From a virus: a stretch of DNA of 22,332 bases. The stretch's first letter is position 1, and each line of letters opens with the position of its first letter. This document shows, piece after piece, positions 2,381-16,440 of this stretch. The notes under the pieces were generated by a model that saw nothing but the letters and a program-made list of their open reading frames with translations, did no database searches and was not told where the DNA came from. A program made the position numbers and the translations under genes. The stretch lies in the IMG/VR virus record IMGVR_UViG_3300009436_000122, positions 1 to 22,332 of that record. One strand, written 5' to 3'.

Positions 2381-4456
2381 ATGGAAAATATACTAAGTGT
2401 AGATTTATCAAGTGAAACAAGTCCAGTAGTACAAGAAGTACGAGGTCGTGAATATATAGAATATGGTACTGAAAATTGGAAAAATTTATATCCACAATTT
2501 CTTATTGACTTATATTACAATTCTAGTACTCATGCTGCTATTGTAAATACTACTTCGGAAATGATTTCAGGAGAAGATATTATAGTAGAAGAAAATGATA
2601 ATCTTGAACAATTTGTTAAACTTAAAAAATTCTTAGCTAATGCAAATGGTAAAGAATCTCTACACGAAGTATTAAAAAAAGTAAGTTTAGATTTTAAACT
2701 ACAAGGTGCGTTTGGTTTACATATTATTTGGAATAAAGCCAAAACAGAAATAGTAGAAATATACCATGTTCCATGTGAACGTATTAGAGCAGGTAAACCT
2801 AATGATATGGGTGTAGTAGATACTTACTATATTTCAGCAGATTGGTCTAACACAAGAACAAACAGACCTACACCTATAGCAGCATTTAATAGTAAAGACA
2901 GAACTAATCCTAGTCAATTATTATATACTGGTTTATATAGTCCTAATATGGATATATACCATACTCCTGATTATTTAGCAGCAAACAACTGGGCGTTAGT
3001 AGATTCTAGAGTATCTGAATTTCATCTTAACAATATCAGTAACGGATTTTCTGGAAGCTATATGATTTCTTTTGCAAATGGAATACCTACGCAAGAGGAG
3101 AGAATGCAGATAGAAAGAAGTTTAGCAGATAAATTTACTGGTGCTAGTAATTCAGGAAAGTTTGTGTTGACTTTCTCAGATGATAAAACTAGAACTCCTG
3201 AAATAACTCCTATATCAGTTAGCAACGCAGACAAGCAATATCTTGCGTTACAGGAACTTTTAGTACAAAACATACTTACAGGTCATAGAGTTACTTCTCC
3301 GATGCTTATGGGTATTAAAAACGATACAGGGCTAGGTTCTAATGTAGATGAGATGAACGCAGCTTTTGAGATATACTTAAATACTGTTATTGTACCTTAT
3401 CAAAAACACATACTAAAAACATTATCTAAAATATTTGATATTAATGGTATAAATATTCCTTTATCTTTCGTACAAGCTAAACCAATTACTACTAAGTTTT
3501 CAATAGAAGATTTGAAAGAGGTAATGACTCAGGATGAGATAAGAGAAGAACTTGGATTGAAACCTTTAAATGATGAAGAACTAACGGCAGAAGATGATGA
3601 TAACTATAGTTTAAAAAAAGTAGGTACAATAGTTTCTGATGGTAAAGAGTTACCTTTATTTGATAGTATAGAAGAAGCTGAAGCAGAAGCAGAAAGAATA
3701 GGTTGTAGTGGGCATCATATACATACGCAAGATGGTAAAGATTATTTTATGCCATGTCAAGACCATGATCAATTAATTAATTTAAAAGATTGTGATTGTG
3801 ATAAGAACAAAGAGAACTGCGACAAAAAGTGTTATGAGAAAACTGAGTTAGATGCTTTCTTAGAAACTGTTGAAGATATTCCAGAGGGTTGGGAATTAGT
3901 AGATGAAGAAGTAGTAGATGGAGAACACGCAGACTTTGACTTTGAAGATGAGTTAAATAAAATAGCTAGTGAAAAAATAGAGTTTGCAACTACTGGAGTT
4001 GCTAGACCTGATTCTAAATCTGAACAAGATGGTATATCTAAAAAAACATATGACTATTATAGAGTTAGATATGTATACGCACAAGATAACTTTTTAACTA
4101 GAAAGTCAGGTAAAAAAAGAGATTTTTGCCAAAAAATGGTAGAAGCTAAAAAACTTTATCGTAAAGAAGATATAGAAAGAATGTCTACTAAAAGAGTAAA
4201 TGCAGGATGGGGTAAAGGTGGTGCAGATACTTACGATATATTTTTATTTAAAGGTGGTGGTAATTGTCATCATTTTTGGTTAAGACAAATATACAGAACA
4301 GAATTAGGTATATCTGTAAGTACAAAGATTAAAGATGCAGATTTAGTAGGATATACTAAAGCAAGGTCAGAGGGGTTTACTGCTAAGAAAAACGACAAGA
4401 GAGTAGCTATAGCACCTAAAAGAATGAAAAATAACGGATTTGTAAAAAAGAGATAA
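2381..4456 (+). CDS. Phage portal protein with long Cys/His-rich C-terminal extension
   Basis: At 691 residues this is longer than a typical portal (about 400-550). Residues about 30-400 show portal features: an N-terminal segment reading YPQFLIDLYYNSSTHAAIV, the VPCERIRAG turn in the middle, and a C-terminal core with SPMLMGIKNDTGLGSN followed by a helix and DEIREELGLKPL, typical of the crown region. After that come a Cys/His cluster (C442, H445, H446, H448, C459, H462) and a CDCD...C...C segment at 471-484. Residues about 550-640 form a further compact basic block (RDFCQKM, GWGKGGADTYDIF, GGGNCHHFW). That block is conserved-looking and may be a minor-head-like module, which is inference. 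The portal forms the dodecameric DNA channel at the capsid vertex. It is followed one base later by a connector gene. Confidence 0.88.
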   Translation: MENILSVDLSSETSPVVQEVRGREYIEYGTENWKNLYPQFLIDLYYNSSTHAAIVNTTSEMISGEDIIVEENDNLEQFVKLKKFLANANGKESLHEVLKKVSLDFKLQGAFGLHIIWNKAKTEIVEIYHVPCERIRAGKPNDMGVVDTYYISADWSNTRTNRPTPIAAFNSKDRTNPSQLLYTGLYSPNMDIYHTPDYLAANNWALVDSRVSEFHLNNISNGFSGSYMISFANGIPTQEERMQIERSLADKFTGASNSGKFVLTFSDDKTRTPEITPISVSNADKQYLALQELLVQNILTGHRVTSPMLMGIKNDTGLGSNVDEMNAAFEIYLNTVIVPYQKHILKTLSKIFDINGINIPLSFVQAKPITTKFSIEDLKEVMTQDEIREELGLKPLNDEELTAEDDDNYSLKKVGTIVSDGKELPLFDSIEEAEAEAERIGCSGHHIHTQDGKDYFMPCQDHDQLINLKDCDCDKNKENCDKKCYEKTELDAFLETVEDIPEGWELVDEEVVDGEHADFDFEDELNKIASEKIEFATTGVARPDSKSEQDGISKKTYDYYRVRYVYAQDNFLTRKSGKKRDFCQKMVEAKKLYRKEDIERMSTKRVNAGWGKGGADTYDIFLFKGGGNCHHFWLRQIYRTELGISVSTKIKDADLVGYTKARSEGFTAKKNDKRVAIAPKRMKNNGFVKKR

Positions 4457-8264: not shown

Positions 8265-8780
8265 ATGACTGATACAGAAAAGTTTATAAATATATGCGAC
8301 CTTACTACCAGTTTAGTAGGGTTGCATAAAGGTTCTTTAGCTGATAAAACTAGAAAGCAAGAATATCAGATACCTAGAATGGTAGCATCTATAATTGCTT
8401 TGTTAGAAAAAGAGATACATTATAAAGTTATAGCTAAAGTTTTAAATAGAGATAGGAGTTTAATTTATCATTACAAAAAAAAACATAAGTACAATTACTC
8501 ATCTTTTCCAAAGTATAGAGATATGTTTAATCTTGTATACAATTCTTTTAAAGAAATTGATGTATCTAAAAAGATTTTTAAGACAAGAGAGGATTTAATG
8601 AGTTGTTTAAAAATAGCAGGTATTAAGTCTGTAGTCAAACCACAAGTTAAAATTAAGATCAAAAGTGGAGATGCACTATTTACATTAAATACTAACTATT
8701 TTGATTTTTCAAATAATATTAATATTATTAAGGAATCATTAAAAGATTATGATTACAAAACTAATATAATAACATTATGA
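8265..8780 (+). CDS. DnaA domain-IV-like helix-turn-helix protein
   Basis: The frame is open from about 8205, but the ATG at 8265 is preferred: it lies just after the SSB-like stop, and the upstream codons duplicate the coding region of that gene. The product is 171 residues. Residues about 28-75 resemble the DNA-binding domain IV of DnaA: a basic helix (DKTRKQEYQIPRMVASIIAL) followed by YKVIAKVLNRDRSLIYHYKKKH, corresponding to the IG..lgRDHtTV.h motif. The ATPase domain of DnaA is absent. The remaining 100 residues are of unknown fold. It probably binds double-stranded sites at the phage origin or at a promoter. The gene overlaps the next one by ATGA, so it is coupled to the winged-helix initiator. 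Confidence 0.65.
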   Translation: MTDTEKFINICDLTTSLVGLHKGSLADKTRKQEYQIPRMVASIIALLEKEIHYKVIAKVLNRDRSLIYHYKKKHKYNYSSFPKYRDMFNLVYNSFKEIDVSKKIFKTREDLMSCLKIAGIKSVVKPQVKIKIKSGDALFTLNTNYFDFSNNINIIKESLKDYDYKTNIITL

Positions 8781-9409
8781 AAGAATTACTAAGTAGTACG
8801 GCTTTTTTAGTAGTTAATAAAGAACTTGCTAGAAACATAGGATTAAAAGAAACTATTTTACTAGCTGACCTTATAAGTAAAGAAGAATACTTTATTAATA
8901 ATGGAATGACTGATGGATGGTTTTTTAACACAGAAGATAATATATTTAAAGATACTACACTTACTCCTTATCAGCAGAGAAATGCTCTTAAAACTCTTAA
9001 AAAGTATGAAATAATAGAAACTAAGCGTAAGGGTATACCTGCTAAACAATACTTTAAAATAAATGAAGAACAAGTTATTAAGTTTCTTAACAACAAGTCA
9101 TCAACTAACTTAACAACTATTAATAAGAATAAAGAAATAATATTAAATAATAAATTATCTATAAAGGAAAAATTTATTAATCAGGTTATGTTTTTTGATT
9201 ACCCAAAAGAAATGAAAGAAGATTTTATTAATTACTGGACAGAGGGTAAAAATAAGATGAGGTATCAAAAGCAGGTAACATTTGAAATTAAATTAAGATT
9301 GGAGAGGTGGTCAAAAAATTCTGCTAAGTGGGATAAACCAAAAAAGAATAATAATACAACATCTCATTTTCACAAAGCAGGAGGTGATTATGGAGATGGA
9401 ACATTTTAA
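8777..9409 (+). CDS. Winged-helix replication initiator-like protein
   Basis: The 210-residue protein has an N-terminal winged-helix region (about 10-100) with the pattern NKELARNIGLKETILLADLISKEEYF, then TPYQQRNALKTLKKYEIIETKRKGIPAKQYFKI, as in phage replication initiators and RepA/DnaD-type N-domains. After a linker rich in Asn/Lys comes a second block at about 145-182 (DFINYWTEGKNKMRYQKQVTFEIKLRLERW), which resembles the helicase-loader-binding block of primosomal proteins such as DnaT or DnaD. It is translationally coupled upstream and followed 3 bases later by a DnaC-like loader, supporting a role in assembling the primosome at the phage origin. It is soluble, with a disordered C-terminus. 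Confidence 0.7.
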   Translation: MKELLSSTAFLVVNKELARNIGLKETILLADLISKEEYFINNGMTDGWFFNTEDNIFKDTTLTPYQQRNALKTLKKYEIIETKRKGIPAKQYFKINEEQVIKFLNNKSSTNLTTINKNKEIILNNKLSIKEKFINQVMFFDYPKEMKEDFINYWTEGKNKMRYQKQVTFEIKLRLERWSKNSAKWDKPKKNNNTTSHFHKAGGDYGDGTF

Positions 9410-9412
9410 GAT

Positions 9413-9988
9413 ATGAGAACAATAGAAGATACATTTAAGATTACAGACTTTCTTCAGCCAAAAGTTTACAATAGATATAGATTAGGAACAAAAGAAGAAT
9501 TAAAAGAAATGTTTGTAAAATCATTTAAGCATTATGATCGTACTATTAATGAGTATAATCATAAGCCAGAGTATGATAAGGTTATTGACTGGATGGTAGA
9601 TACTAAAGGCAAAGGTTTAATGCTGATGGGGGATTGTGGTACTGGTAAATCAACTATATTAAATTATGTAATACCTGCTATTTTTAGAACTTTAACAAAC
9701 AAGATATTAAGAAGTGTACCAGCAAAAGAATTAGGTGTAGTAGAAAGAAATAAATCTCCTTTTATTATTATTGATGATTTAGGTACTGAGAGTATTAAAA
9801 ATGATTATGGAACAAAAATAGATGCAGTAGCAGATGCAATATCTTATGCAGAGGATAGTTCAAAAACTTTACTGGTAACTACAAATCTAACTCCTAAATC
9901 ACTTGATGAGAGATACAGTGATAGGACTTTAGATAGACTTAGGAAATGTAAAGTAGTTGTAATAAAAGGAAAAAGTTTTAGAAAATAA
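9413..9988 (+). CDS. DnaC-like AAA+ helicase loader
   Basis: The 191-residue protein has a full set of AAA+ motifs: Walker A GDCGTGKS at 73-80, Walker B FIIIDD at 117-122, sensor-1 TTN at 156-158, and an arginine-rich segment RTLDRLRK at 171-178 that holds the likely arginine finger. The length and spacing match phage DnaC/IstB-type loaders rather than full helicases. The role is ATP-dependent loading of a replicative helicase, presumably host DnaB because no helicase is encoded in the window, onto DNA opened by the upstream initiator proteins. It follows the winged-helix gene by 3 bases. The family call is secure; the identity of the helicase partner is inferred. Confidence 0.85.
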   Translation: MRTIEDTFKITDFLQPKVYNRYRLGTKEELKEMFVKSFKHYDRTINEYNHKPEYDKVIDWMVDTKGKGLMLMGDCGTGKSTILNYVIPAIFRTLTNKILRSVPAKELGVVERNKSPFIIIDDLGTESIKNDYGTKIDAVADAISYAEDSSKTLLVTTNLTPKSLDERYSDRTLDRLRKCKVVVIKGKSFRK

Positions 9989-10225: not shown

Positions 10226-10450
10226 ATGAAAGAAAATTATAAAGAACTTTATGAAAATGTAGAATATTTATTTTTAAATCAAAAAAAAATAACTAATAAA
10301 AAACAAGAAAAAATATATTGGTTAAAAACATTTACAGAATTTATAAAAGAAAAAAATATAAATTTATATAATGAAGCAACAAAACATACTAATAAATTAG
10401 AGAGTAATAATTATTTTACTGAAGAAGAATTAAAAAAATTTAAATCTTAA
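10226..10450 (+). CDS. Hypothetical small protein (74 aa)
   Basis: A 74-residue lysine/asparagine/glutamate-rich protein, probably helical throughout (KELYENVEYLFLNQKKITNK, ending FTEEELKKFKS). It starts 7 bases after the preceding stop. It has no cysteine cluster, signal or membrane helix. The composition is among the most AT-driven in the window. Not recognised; its place between replication genes and the HTH protein is the only clue. Confidence 0.5.
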   Translation: MKENYKELYENVEYLFLNQKKITNKKQEKIYWLKTFTEFIKEKNINLYNEATKHTNKLESNNYFTEEELKKFKS

Positions 10451-11163: not shown

Positions 11164-11520
11164 ATGGAAAAACCAATTTTTTCTAGTACAAAGCATCAAA
11201 TTTTAGTTTCGGAGTATATGAATTTAATGTTATCATCTGTTAAAGAATGTTCTACAAAATCTAAGTTTGAAAATTTTAAAGAGGTATTTAATATAATTAT
11301 TGAATATCACAATGGTTACGGAAAAAGTGTAGGTATGGGTAACTGGAATGATTGGTTAATGATTCTACCAATTAATTTATCAGTTATGACTAATGGGTAT
11401 TTTGCAGGACTAGAAACAAAACGAAATGCAAAATCAATAAGAGTATACAAAGTTTTATTAGATAAATATTTAGAGGATTTAGTTTTAGATTTATCAGAAT
11501 TAGAATTTGTAAATGAATAA
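11164..11520 (+). CDS. Hypothetical protein (118 aa) preceding the sigma-like gene
   Basis: The frame can be read from a TTG at 11158, but that codon is part of the TATATTTG element, and the ATG two codons later (MEKPIFSSTKHQ...) is preferred. The 118-residue product is soluble and mainly helical, with an aromatic centre (GKSVGMGNWNDWLMILPINL) and an acidic end (LDLSELEFVNE). No family is recognised. It overlaps the sigma-like gene by 8 bases, so the two are probably translated together, which makes a partner or regulator of that factor a reasonable but unproven idea. Confidence 0.6.
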   Translation: MEKPIFSSTKHQILVSEYMNLMLSSVKECSTKSKFENFKEVFNIIIEYHNGYGKSVGMGNWNDWLMILPINLSVMTNGYFAGLETKRNAKSIRVYKVLLDKYLEDLVLDLSELEFVNE

Positions 11521-12067
11521 AATTTATATAGAAATATCAAAGCTAACTGATAAGTTTATAGAGATGTCTTATGGTCTTGTTCAAAATGAAACAGAAATAA
11601 AAAACGCAGTACAAGAGTTAATGCTTTATTTTCTTTCAATGAATCCTGATCAATTAAAAAGTATTTGGGAAAAAGATGGTAGGGATGGTATTATAAAATA
11701 TGGTGCAGTAGTTTTAAAAAGAAGTTACACATCTGTAAGAAGTCCTTTTTATTATAAGTATAAAAAATACTACAGGAACTTAGTTACACCTACTGCTAAT
11801 TATTCATTTGCAAAAAATAACTTTCATAAAAGTATTTATAATTTACCAAATGTAAAAGTAGATACCTACCAAAATGATAAGATAGAACTTATAGAAAAAG
11901 AATTAAATAAGTTGTGTTGGTATGATAAAAAAATTTTCGAGTTATATTATGGAGAGTCTAATACACTAGATAGTCTCGCAAAGAAAACTGGTATAAGTAG
12001 GAATAGTTTATTTACTACAATAGATAAAGTAAGAAATATATTAAAAGAAGAATTATTAGATGAGTAA
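11513..12067 (+). CDS. Sigma-70-like transcription factor
   Basis: The 184-residue protein ends in a sigma region-4-like helix-turn-helix at about 126-180: LIEKELNKLCWYDKKIFELYYGESNTLDSLAKKTGISRNSLFTTIDKVRNILKEE, read as a short acidic helix, the L.....D..IFELYY helix, and the HTH with SRNSLF in the recognition helix. The N-terminal 70 residues could hold a reduced region 2 (EIKNAVQELMLYFLSMNP). This is the organisation of small phage sigma-like factors in flavobacterial phages. It would bind host RNA polymerase and direct it to phage promoters, most likely those of the terminase and tail units downstream. Region 2 is weak, so it could instead be a DNA-binding regulator without full sigma activity. 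Confidence 0.62.
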   Translation: MNKIYIEISKLTDKFIEMSYGLVQNETEIKNAVQELMLYFLSMNPDQLKSIWEKDGRDGIIKYGAVVLKRSYTSVRSPFYYKYKKYYRNLVTPTANYSFAKNNFHKSIYNLPNVKVDTYQNDKIELIEKELNKLCWYDKKIFELYYGESNTLDSLAKKTGISRNSLFTTIDKVRNILKEELLDE

Positions 12068-12464: not shown

Positions 12465-12695
12465 ATGAAAGATAAGACACCAAATTATTATACAGGAAAA
12501 GTTTATGGATATAAAGCATTTGATATTATAGAGGATTACGAATTAAACTATAACTGTGCTACTGCACTTACTTACATTTTGAGAAGTGATAGAAAACATA
12601 GTAGTGCTGATGAATGTTTACAAAAAGCAATAGACCATTTAGAAAATGAATTAAAAATTTTAAAAAAAAACAAACCTAGAATAAGTCATATATAA
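12465..12695 (+). CDS. DUF3310 family protein
   Basis: A 76-residue protein matching the DUF3310 pattern almost completely: YYTGKVYGYKAFDIIEDYELNYNCATALTYILRSDRK at 8-44, followed by CLQKAIDHLENEL at 51-63, equivalent to the usual Y..G..E..D.IE...L.F..G.A.KYI.R...K and DL.KA..YL..EL. The family is frequent in tailed phages and is often annotated as a nucleotide kinase, but the short length and lack of a P-loop make that doubtful. It is all-helical and probably interacts with nucleotides or a partner protein. It is the last gene before the 95-base gap with a long hairpin. Confidence 0.78.
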   Translation: MKDKTPNYYTGKVYGYKAFDIIEDYELNYNCATALTYILRSDRKHSSADECLQKAIDHLENELKILKKNKPRISHI

Positions 12696-13614: not shown

Positions 13615-13884
13615 ATGGATAAACGAATAAACAACGGAGGTAAAAGAGAGGGTGCAGGTCGTAAAGGCAAAGCAGAGGAACAGAAACTAATAGAGAATCT
13701 TACACCTATGAATCCTGATGCTTTAAAGTCATTAGAGATAGGTTTAAAGAACAAGGAACAATGGGCAGTTAAATTATTCTTTGAATACTTTTATGGTAGA
13801 CCTCAACAAAGAGTTGATGTTACCAGTAATAGTGAAACATTAAATATACCTATAATAAACTTCATTGAATCCGAAACTGAATAA
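13615..13884 (+). CDS. terS: Terminase small subunit-like protein
   Basis: The ATG at 13615 is preferred to the TTG at 13591, which lies within the TAGATTTG element. The 89-residue product begins MDKRINNGGKREGAGRKGK, and the GGKREGAGRK block is characteristic of small terminase-associated proteins (DUF5681-like) in phages. It then forms two or three helices (DALKSLEIGLKNKEQWAVKLFFEYFYGRPQQ). Small subunits recognise the packaging site and regulate the large subunit. The gene overlaps the start of the large-subunit gene by 20 bases, which supports the assignment. It is short for a full TerS, so an accessory role cannot be excluded. Confidence 0.75.
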   Translation: MDKRINNGGKREGAGRKGKAEEQKLIENLTPMNPDALKSLEIGLKNKEQWAVKLFFEYFYGRPQQRVDVTSNSETLNIPIINFIESETE

Positions 13885-15073
13885 AAAGTATAGTGTACTA
13901 TTTTCTTCTGATTGTAGATACTATATAATTACAGGAGGGCGAGGTTCAGGTAAGTCCTATGCAGTAACTGTATTTCTTACTTTGCTTACAATGGCACAAG
14001 GCATAAGAGTTTTGTTTACAAGATACACTATGGTATCTGCACATCTATCTATTATACCTGAGTTTTTAGAAAAGATAGGTTTATTAGGATATGATTCTAT
14101 CTTTAGTATTAATAAATCAGAAGTAGTAAATGAATCAACTAAAAGTGATATACTATTTAGAGGGATTAAAACTTCATCAGGTAATCAGACAGGTAATTTA
14201 AAATCTTTAACTAATGTTTCAAATTGGATTTTAGATGAAGCAGAAGAACTTGTTGATGAGAATATATTTGATACTATTGATTTAAGTATAAGAGAGAAGA
14301 ACATACAGAATAGAATTATATTAATACTTAATCCTACAACTAAAGAGCATTGGATATATAAAAGATTCTTTGAAGATAAAGGTATACAAGCAGGTTTTAA
14401 TGGTATTAAAGATAATGTCTGTTACATTCATTCTACTTACTTAGATAACAAGCAGAACCTATCAGATAGTTTCTTAGAAAGGATATATACACTTAAAGAA
14501 AACAATCCTAAAAAATATCTACACAAAATTCTTGGAGGTTGGTTAGATAAAGCAGAGGGTGTAGTATTTGATAACTGGACAATAGGGGATTTTAATCCTG
14601 ATGGTTTACAAACATCTTGTGGTATGGACTTTGGATTTTCTATTGATCCTGATAGTCTTACAGAAGTAGCTATAGATAAAAGAAAGATGAAGATATACAT
14701 TAAGGAACACATTTACAGAAATGGTTTAAAATCTCATGAGTTAGCTAAGATTATATTAGACAAGGTAGAAAACAAATTAATAATAGCAGATAGTGCTGAA
14801 CCAAGACTAATAGAAGATTTAAGGCATCTAGGAGTTAATATAAGACCAGTTAAGAAAGGAACTATAGAAAGTGGTGTAACTCGTATGCAAGACTATCAAT
14901 TAGTTGTTACTGCTGAATCTACTAACATAGCTAAAGAATTAAACAATTATGTATATGCAGACAAAGGTTCTAAGTTATATGTAGATAATTACAATCATGC
15001 CATAGATGGAATCCGTTATAACGTTATATATCATTTAGACAATCCAAACTTAGGTAAATACTATGTGCAATAA
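13865..15073 (+). CDS. terL: Terminase large subunit
   Basis: The 402-residue protein has both domains of a packaging motor. The ATPase part has Walker A GGRGSGKS at 24-31 and Walker B WILDE at 121-125 with the catalytic E125. The RNase H-like nuclease part has three acidic residues, D255 (CGMDFGFS), D309 (LIIADSAEPR) and D381 (NYNHAIDGIRY). It pumps DNA into the prohead through the portal and cuts the concatemer. An in-frame TAA at 13856-13858 and absence of ATG force a TTG start at 13865, inside terS. A terminator-like hairpin follows the stop. The assignment is secure. Packaging type (headful or cos) cannot be told without a family tree. Confidence 0.95.
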   Translation: MNPKLNKKYSVLFSSDCRYYIITGGRGSGKSYAVTVFLTLLTMAQGIRVLFTRYTMVSAHLSIIPEFLEKIGLLGYDSIFSINKSEVVNESTKSDILFRGIKTSSGNQTGNLKSLTNVSNWILDEAEELVDENIFDTIDLSIREKNIQNRIILILNPTTKEHWIYKRFFEDKGIQAGFNGIKDNVCYIHSTYLDNKQNLSDSFLERIYTLKENNPKKYLHKILGGWLDKAEGVVFDNWTIGDFNPDGLQTSCGMDFGFSIDPDSLTEVAIDKRKMKIYIKEHIYRNGLKSHELAKIILDKVENKLIIADSAEPRLIEDLRHLGVNIRPVKKGTIESGVTRMQDYQLVVTAESTNIAKELNNYVYADKGSKLYVDNYNHAIDGIRYNVIYHLDNPNLGKYYVQ

Positions 15074-15179: not shown

Positions 15180-15824
15180 ATGCAGGTAAAAATTAAAAAA
15201 GATGGTAAGCAAAAAAACTACAATCTTATTAATAGTTGGGAAGATGTAACACTTGAGAAATGGTCTAAACTAATTAATAGTCAAACCAAATCTAAAACAA
15301 AAGAAGCATTAGATACAATAAGTGTTTTATCTGATATACCTGCAAAACTTATTAAGGAGTTAAAGATTAGTGATGTATCAGTTATTTTAAGTAAGATAGC
15401 TGAGTTACAATCTAAAGCAAATAGTACCTTAAGAAGAATTATTAAAGTAGATGGTGTTGAGTATGGGTTTCATCCTAGTTTATCAGATATTAGTTTAGGA
15501 GAATATGCAGACTTAGAAACATATATACAAAACGGAGTAGAAAAAAACTTGCCTAATATAATGGCAGTTCTTTATAGACCGATTGTAGAAAAGAAAAATA
15601 AATTTTATACCATTACATCTTATGATGGTAGTGGTGTAAGAGTTAGGGCAGAGAAATTTAAACAGATGAAAGCAATTGATGTTAATAGTGCTTTGGTTTT
15701 TTTTTGGACTTTAGGCAACAAACTGTCAACGATTTTGCCATTGTATTTAATGGAACAAACGAAGAAAGTGATAGAATCTCTACAGATGAACAATTCGCAA
15801 AAAAGTGGAGTTGGTTTGGTATAA
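15180..15824 (+). CDS. Tail assembly chaperone, zero-frame product (gpG-like)
   Basis: A 214-residue protein opening MQVKIKKDGKQKNYNLINSWEDVTLEKW, followed by helical segments and FHPSLSDISLGEYADLE and IMAVLYRPI. These features recur in Bacteroidota phage proteins encoded at the start of tail modules that I interpret as tail assembly chaperones. Near the C-terminus the codons GTT TTT TTT TGG form a run of nine T (15697-15705), at which the -1 frame opens into a second coding region. After the T run the zero frame continues for 39 residues (WTLGNKLSTILPLYLM...). The protein would assist polymerisation of tail tube around the tape measure and is not expected in the virion. The chaperone call rests on gene order and the frameshift more than on motifs. 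Confidence 0.62.
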   Translation: MQVKIKKDGKQKNYNLINSWEDVTLEKWSKLINSQTKSKTKEALDTISVLSDIPAKLIKELKISDVSVILSKIAELQSKANSTLRRIIKVDGVEYGFHPSLSDISLGEYADLETYIQNGVEKNLPNIMAVLYRPIVEKKNKFYTITSYDGSGVRVRAEKFKQMKAIDVNSALVFFWTLGNKLSTILPLYLMEQTKKVIESLQMNNSQKSGVGLV

Positions 15825-15949
15825 TGTATAGATTAACAAATGGAGAGATAGTAAATTTAGAAAGGATAACAAAGTTAAGTTTATATGAATGTTTAACTTG
15901 GTTAAGTTACGAAGTAGATTTAAATGAAATAAAAACAGTTCAAAGATGA
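15180..15949 (+). CDS. Tail assembly chaperone, -1 frameshift fusion product (gpGT-like, predicted)
   Basis: Predicted joint product: the first 175 codons of the zero frame through the second TTT (15702-15704), then the -1 frame from base 15704 to the stop at 15947-15949, about 256 residues in all. The -1 segment encodes DFRQQTVNDFAIVFNG and then FAKKWSWFGIMYRLTNGEIVNLERITKLSLYECLTWLSYEVD, which has the conserved look of a tail chaperone C-domain. In the -1 frame there are stops (TGA, TAA, TAG) just upstream of the T run and no ATG before the KKWSWFG core, so independent initiation is unlikely apart from a TTG in the T run itself. The next gene overlaps its stop as ATGA. A homopolymer sequencing error is the main alternative. 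Confidence 0.6.
15698..15705 (+). other. Putative -1 ribosomal frameshift site (T run) with downstream hairpin
   Basis: In the zero frame the run reads T TTT TTT (15698-15704) before TGG, matching the X XXY YYZ slippery form. Eight to nine bases downstream GGCAA (15714-15718) can pair with TTGCC (15735-15739) as a 5-bp stem with a 16-base loop, which is a modest stimulator. Confidence 0.6.
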
Positions 15950-16440
15950 CACATTTTAAAAATTACAACAACACGATAGATACCTTAAAACAATTAGGTT
16001 CTAATCACTATCAGATTAAAACTGTTACTACTGGAGATATTTGGGAGATTGATTTAGAGAAAAATACTTTATTTCCTTTAATGCACATCAATCCAATTAA
16101 TGCAGTAGCTGGTACTCATCAAATGACTTTAAACTTTCAAATCTTTATTATGGATTTAGTATTTAATGATGAGAGTAATGAGCAAGAAGTCTTATCAGAT
16201 TGTTTAAGTATATGTAATGATCTAATAGGTACACTAAAGAACGGAGAGAGTCTTTATCTGTCAGGTGCAAGTCAAGGAGAAAGTCCTGCATACTTTACAG
16301 AGGGAGATGTAACTATAGAACCATTTACAGAAAGATTTGATAACTCAGTTACTGGTTGGGTATTTACTTTACCAATAATAATAGAGAATAACTACAATAC
16401 TTGTATAGCACCACAAGCAACAACATACGCAGGTAAATAA
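15946..16440 (+). CDS. Tail-module structural protein (tail completion/terminator-like)
   Basis: The 164-residue protein starts in the stop of the chaperone fusion (ATGA). It has an N-terminal helix (YNNTIDTLKQLGSNHYQIKT) and strands with HQMTLNFQIFIMDLVFNDESNEQEVLSDCLSICNDLIGTL at 57-97, followed by FTERFDNSVTGWVFTLPIIIEN. The DESNE..VLSD helix and FTERF.....GW.F strand are a recognisable pair in Bacteroidota phage tail modules. The layout (helix, sheet with an inserted helix) is that of tail terminator or tail completion proteins. The role is inferred from layout and position; no biochemical motif is present. Confidence 0.55.
   Translation: MTHFKNYNNTIDTLKQLGSNHYQIKTVTTGDIWEIDLEKNTLFPLMHINPINAVAGTHQMTLNFQIFIMDLVFNDESNEQEVLSDCLSICNDLIGTLKNGESLYLSGASQGESPAYFTEGDVTIEPFTERFDNSVTGWVFTLPIIIENNYNTCIAPQATTYAGK

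Follow-up and report, generated by a model that had tools for sequence, protein, structure and literature searches.

A phage gene near the terminase carries two reading frames that overlap across a run of nine T, which raises the question of whether one start yields two proteins there and, if so, whether the ribosome or RNA polymerase slips on the run. The gene lies in IMG/VR virus record IMGVR_UViG_3300009436_000122; the window, the whole stretch of DNA that we analysed, covers 22,332 bases at 28.5% G+C. Directly 5′ of the gene is the terminase large subunit gene (13865–15073, plus strand; Pfam Terminase_3, E 7e-33). ORF calling places the zero frame at 15180–15824 on the plus strand, encoding a G-like protein of 214 amino acids. 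The T run occupies 15697–15705 (plus strand) in the sequence ...GCT TTG GTT TTT TTT TGG ACT... and holds the in-frame heptamer T_TTT_TTT at 15698–15704, just before TGG. Shortly 5′ of the run the −1 frame has stops at 15677, 15683 and 15686; from 15689 it stays open until a stop at 15947–15949. Counted from the TTG at 15704, it comprises 81 codons and shares 121 bases with the zero frame. The run, the three stops, the 81 codons and the overlap had all been reported in a preliminary description of this DNA and were reproduced here. A slip on the run would join the N-terminal 175 residues of the G-like protein to a T-like domain of 81 amino acids (15704–15949 including the stop, plus strand; delimited by the ORF, by selection and by a T-domain profile), giving a fusion of 256 amino acids (...NSALVFF-LDFRQQ...). 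The TGA that ends the fusion overlaps, as ATGA, the start of the next gene (15946–16440, plus strand; 164 amino acids, PHROG 30964).

T9 alone is not rare in a window of this composition (4 on both strands versus 5.8 expected); what goes beyond chance is its conservation. A first scan for homologues gave 80 loci, further scans queried with divergent members added more, and one scan matched at least 554 relatives, making this a large and mostly unannotated family. Each of the 248 homologous loci extending as far as the site has an unbroken T run (T9 in 241, T10 in 7); 111 of them are non-redundant and some only ~25% identical. The heptamer T_TTT_TTT is likewise in frame in 248 of 248, every one of these loci has two overlapping frames with the −1 shift placed late in the first, and the −1 frame behind the run encodes a conserved domain, LxFR...KWGWY, in the relatives. 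In one locus (L117 and L222, same contig) a later indel breaks the −1 ORF. An alignment of homologues had been proposed as a check in the preliminary description; both frames and the T run are kept in it, and no family member has a fused ORF or frames joined at the DNA level.

Homopolymers are error-prone and a T9 could mutate to T10, so the two frames might be an artefact of sequencing or assembly, or a case of replication-level phase variation. We regard this as exceedingly improbable. Independent assemblies agree, among them those of the isolate phages P12024S and P12024L and of a Galbibacter isolate genome (~413× coverage stated for the contig), and the T10 members have moved the register in such a way that the −1 relation is kept in all of them. 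Both error and phase variation are refuted by these independent T9 and T10 genomes. The two Nonlabens phages, P12024S and P12024L, resemble the window in the gene pair (gp38–39 and gp40–41, respectively), in T9 and in the −1 relation, and are isolated phages; they differ in that the pair is annotated as two separate hypothetical genes, with no annotation of the frame change.

Profile searches of ~400 genomes from each of two orders, Bacteroidales and Flavobacteriales, added six Bacteroidales prophages (L320–L325; L320 and L238 come from a single genome) and one from Flavobacteriales (L331). T9 is present in all seven despite an ORF G+C content of 37–47%. Their Phe pair is always followed by TTA or TTG, whereas CTN makes up 60% of the Leu codons elsewhere in those genes, and the T-domain profile matched all four prophage −1 frames tested (E 5e-18 to 4e-5). 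A scan of the genome collection with L183 gave no relatives, and neither did scans of viral contigs and of phages with L238. Four members (L231, L235, L236 and L237) were found within metagenome-assembled genomes labelled Epsilonproteobacteria, Euryarchaeota and Pseudooceanicola, and are probably mis-binned phage contigs of Bacteroidota. Three very distant Bacteroidales homologues of G (L326, L327 and L329) have a T-domain-like C terminus in the same frame and no T9; their G and T seem to be encoded together without a frame change (a weak T match), and they were set aside as evidence on mechanism. Gp10 of Flavobacterium phage 6H (L319, 10044–10927, minus strand) is a distant structural relative of G. 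It was considered as an instance of the same arrangement and rejected, having no T9 and a TAG in the −1 frame after T_TTT_TTC. An unannotated −1-frame ORF of 105 codons follows gp10 in the gap before gp09, with no clear slip site.

To ask which frame is translated, we counted substitutions by codon position in pairs of 5–25% divergence. Upstream of the overlap, zero-frame positions 1, 2 and 3 had 1918, 976 and 4262 substitutions. The −1-frame positions had 3625, 1781 and 3877 in the overlap and 1357, 1297 and 3831 beyond the zero-frame stop. Because the third position of the −1 frame is the second of the zero frame, the position that is most conserved upstream is the most variable in the overlap, which argues that the −1 frame is translated there. 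By this pattern the −1 frame in the overlap is under purifying selection. The zero frame also matters: a conserved Arg is encoded by AGG in 68 of 88 cases versus 27 of 407 elsewhere, and AGA or CGA would put Asp or Glu in the zero frame. Judged from these comparisons, the original observation is real and the recoding site functional, and a G/GT-type fusion is almost certainly made.

A second route to the T part would be termination–reinitiation, in which it is made as a small protein of its own, translated from the ATG of TAATG (15822–15826, plus strand), where the zero-frame stop overlaps a −1-frame ATG. Of the 111 relatives, 38 have such a stop–start overlap and 62 an ATG within 30 nt, and P12024L gp41 is annotated as a reinitiated separate gene from the equivalent ATG. 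The −1 frame, however, shows conservation and selection starting at the run, 40 codons ahead of this ATG, an ATG falls within its first 20 codons in only 3 of 111 relatives, and reinitiation leaves the invariant T run unexplained. As the source of the T part it is thus very unlikely; TAATG could serve as a secondary reinitiation site in addition to slippage.

The length of the run bears on which machine slips. A −1 ribosomal slip needs only T_TTT_TTT, that is, seven T. Among the 111 non-redundant lineages, the extra T's upstream and downstream of the heptamer were (1,1) in 96, (0,2) in 8, (1,2) in 3, (2,0) in 2 and (2,1) in 2. They are never fewer than two with all three codon registers included, and a quick tree implies at least seven changes of register or length. 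The run is therefore held at nine or more T irrespective of codon register, as expected of programmed transcriptional realignment. Such runs were counted in 699 other genes of these phages (486 kb) against expectations from synonymous shuffles. T9 or longer was observed 0 times versus 6.8 expected, T8 11 times versus 17, and T7 35 times versus 73 (0.48); T_TTT_TTT in frame occurred 35 times. Nine is the length from which A or T runs become prone to slippage in many bacteria (PMC1088944; also PMC5009743). The sense strand of the window also has three A9 runs (8475–8483, 10281–10289 and 12662–12670), within or at the end of early ORFs; across these phages A9 was observed 12 times versus 29 expected, under-represented yet tolerated, unlike T9.

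The preliminary description had taken the frameshift to be ribosomal, and had placed a small hairpin behind the slip site. A 4-bp stem, GGCA/UGUC, does begin 8 nt past the run, but it is not conserved and the region downstream of the run in the window folds no better than shuffles (z 0.27). Across the 111 relatives there is no downstream structure (mean z −0.20) and no conserved RNA fold on either side of the run, and a hairpin or pseudoknot as stimulator was dropped for lack of signal in this set. SD-like tetramers in the 16 nt upstream are in slight excess (30 of 111, 27%, versus 14% in control windows). Downstream structures or upstream SD-like elements often accompany −1 ribosomal frameshifting but are not required for it. 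A +1-frame stop lies within 3 codons in 97 of 111 relatives; we rejected it as a safety stop for U8 messages, since it follows from double coding.

A T total of at least nine across registers, the absence of T9 elsewhere and the lack of conserved structure fit programmed transcriptional slippage, and the comparative evidence favours RNA polymerase over the ribosome that was originally assumed. We infer that one coding start would give two proteins in the following way. Most messages would carry nine U and be translated into the 214-amino-acid G-like protein. In a minority of transcripts RNA polymerase would slip on T9 and add one U, and ordinary translation of the U10 message would pass into the −1 frame, yielding the 256-amino-acid G–T fusion. 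We consider it probable that this tail gene makes its two products by such T9-to-U10 slippage. For the Bacteroidota phages at large, we lean, a shade less firmly, towards RNA-polymerase slippage on an invariant nine-T run, and not ribosomal frameshifting, as what sets the ratio of the two chaperone forms.

The same protein would result from programmed −1 ribosomal frameshifting in the manner of lambda G/GT, with tandem Phe-tRNAs slipping back one base on T_TTT_TTT to add the T domain, and the evidence on mechanism is therefore indirect. Frameshifting in tail chaperones is textbook ribosomal recoding. A perfect slippery heptamer of the X_XXY_YYZ type is in frame at every locus, so ribosomal slippage would work too, and it is the known mechanism for tail assembly chaperones in many phages (PMC5009743). 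Also to be set against the transcriptional reading are the partial fixation of some flanking T's by the amino acids of either frame, the under-representation of T7 as well, and the SD-like excess upstream. The ribosomal explanation nonetheless seems the less probable of the two, if a substantial contender: seven T suffice for it, yet no locus has a run of just seven or eight there, and the number of extra T's balances out between registers. Nor was a variant heptamer such as T_TTT_TTC seen there, a stimulatory structure is missing, and these phages tolerate the heptamer at 35 other positions. Polymerase and ribosomal slippage may both act.

Programmed transcriptional realignment on runs of nine A or T has been described in Shigella mxiE and spa13, Thermus dnaX and IS elements (PMC1088944, PMC5009743). 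The present locus resembles these systems in having a conserved A/T run of at least nine within the coding sequence, with such runs avoided elsewhere, and resembles mxiE in that the addition of a single base gives access to the extended ORF. It differs from all four systems in being a phage tail gene kept across phages of Flavobacteriales and Bacteroidales, where slippage is proposed from comparison. Searches of an open-access library gave no account of transcriptional slippage for a tail assembly chaperone. With respect to lambda gpG/gpGT and its counterparts in other long-tailed phages, the locus is alike in its single start, with a short common product and a longer one in the −1 frame, and, as in lambda, the shift comes near the end of the G part, the C-terminal T domain is small and the context is a siphovirus tail. 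It is unlike them in its invariant run of at least nine T, where other phages have variable heptamers, in the lack of detectable sequence homology and in its position right after the terminase with genes before the tape measure gene. The invariant run, together with a likely transcriptional mechanism, sets the locus apart from known G/GT pairs.

In G/GT chaperones, G binds the tape measure protein and T the tail tube protein, and neither is part of the virion. By analogy with lambda, coating of the tape measure protein would fall to the common short form and recruitment of the tail tube protein to the rarer long one. An AlphaFold model of G (mean pLDDT 89) matched I6R9M9 of Nonlabens phage P12024S (E 2.8e-12) and uncharacterized phage proteins, and in BFVD it weakly resembled a protein annotated as a tail assembly chaperone (E 0.011, probability 0.98); the T domain was predicted with low confidence (pLDDT 58). 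Six members weakly match PHROG 166, ‘tail protein’. There was no match in Pfam, tail-chaperone families included, and the G model had none in the PDB.

The part of the genome missing from the window is supplied by the relative L085, in which the order is terminase, G/GT, small tail genes, two large tail genes, tape measure, a likely capsid gene and portal. Its tape measure gene (8575–9981, 468 amino acids, assigned by PHROG) lies ~7 kb downstream of G/GT. The Galbibacter prophage L234 has terminase, GT, two small genes, two large genes and tape measure, with four genes between. These gene orders support a tailed phage that encodes a tape measure protein, and in neither relative is G/GT just upstream of the tape measure gene. 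Since such adjacency is typical but not obligatory, its absence lowers the claim of a lambda-type module and not that of function. Of the G/GT arrangement proposed in the preliminary description, the conserved −1 change joining two ORFs and the fitting siphovirus gene content stood; neither adjacency to the tape measure gene nor a sequence match to Pfam tail-chaperone families was found. Recoding might be real and the product still have some other virion-assembly role next to the terminase, as the missing Pfam and PDB matches and the several genes before the tape measure gene would allow. We think this unlikely in view of the two-frame design, the size, the helical T domain, the tail gene neighbourhood with a tape measure gene in both relatives, and the weak fold and PHROG matches. 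From design and context we infer a chaperone role; on the alignments, this tail assembly chaperone-like gene has a recoding site that is real and strongly conserved.

If polymerase slippage is correct, two different machines would have arrived at one two-product design, as is reported for dnaX; and if a large phage group uses it, the ratio would be the conserved quantity and the machine replaceable. A T9 rule would help annotators to find tail chaperones, and then the tail module, in Bacteroidota phages.

Several other features of these genomes were observed. The ORF at 11513–12067 encodes a small protein with a weak helix–turn–helix match (UPF0122), in the position of P12024L gp35 (annotated as sigma-70 region 2); a phage transcription factor of this kind might influence how the T run is transcribed late in infection. 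The source contig of L085 (31,072 bases) has two non-identical portal genes, with matches at 836–2734 and 28140–30218, ~27.3 kb from one another (their identity to the window is 87/79% and 83%); the contig is either a chimera or a ~27 kb genome whose assembly, drawing on two strains, ran beyond its ends. In the window, the portal protein (2381–4456) has an unusual C-terminal extension, in which a DUF3721 motif (GCSGHHIHTQDGKDYF) is accompanied by another domain that is basic and conserved. Two successive tail-fibre-like ORFs (3–440 and 440–2008) have a common laminin-G-type C terminus (FYGKVKQLQVYDT...), which suggests duplicated receptor-binding domains.
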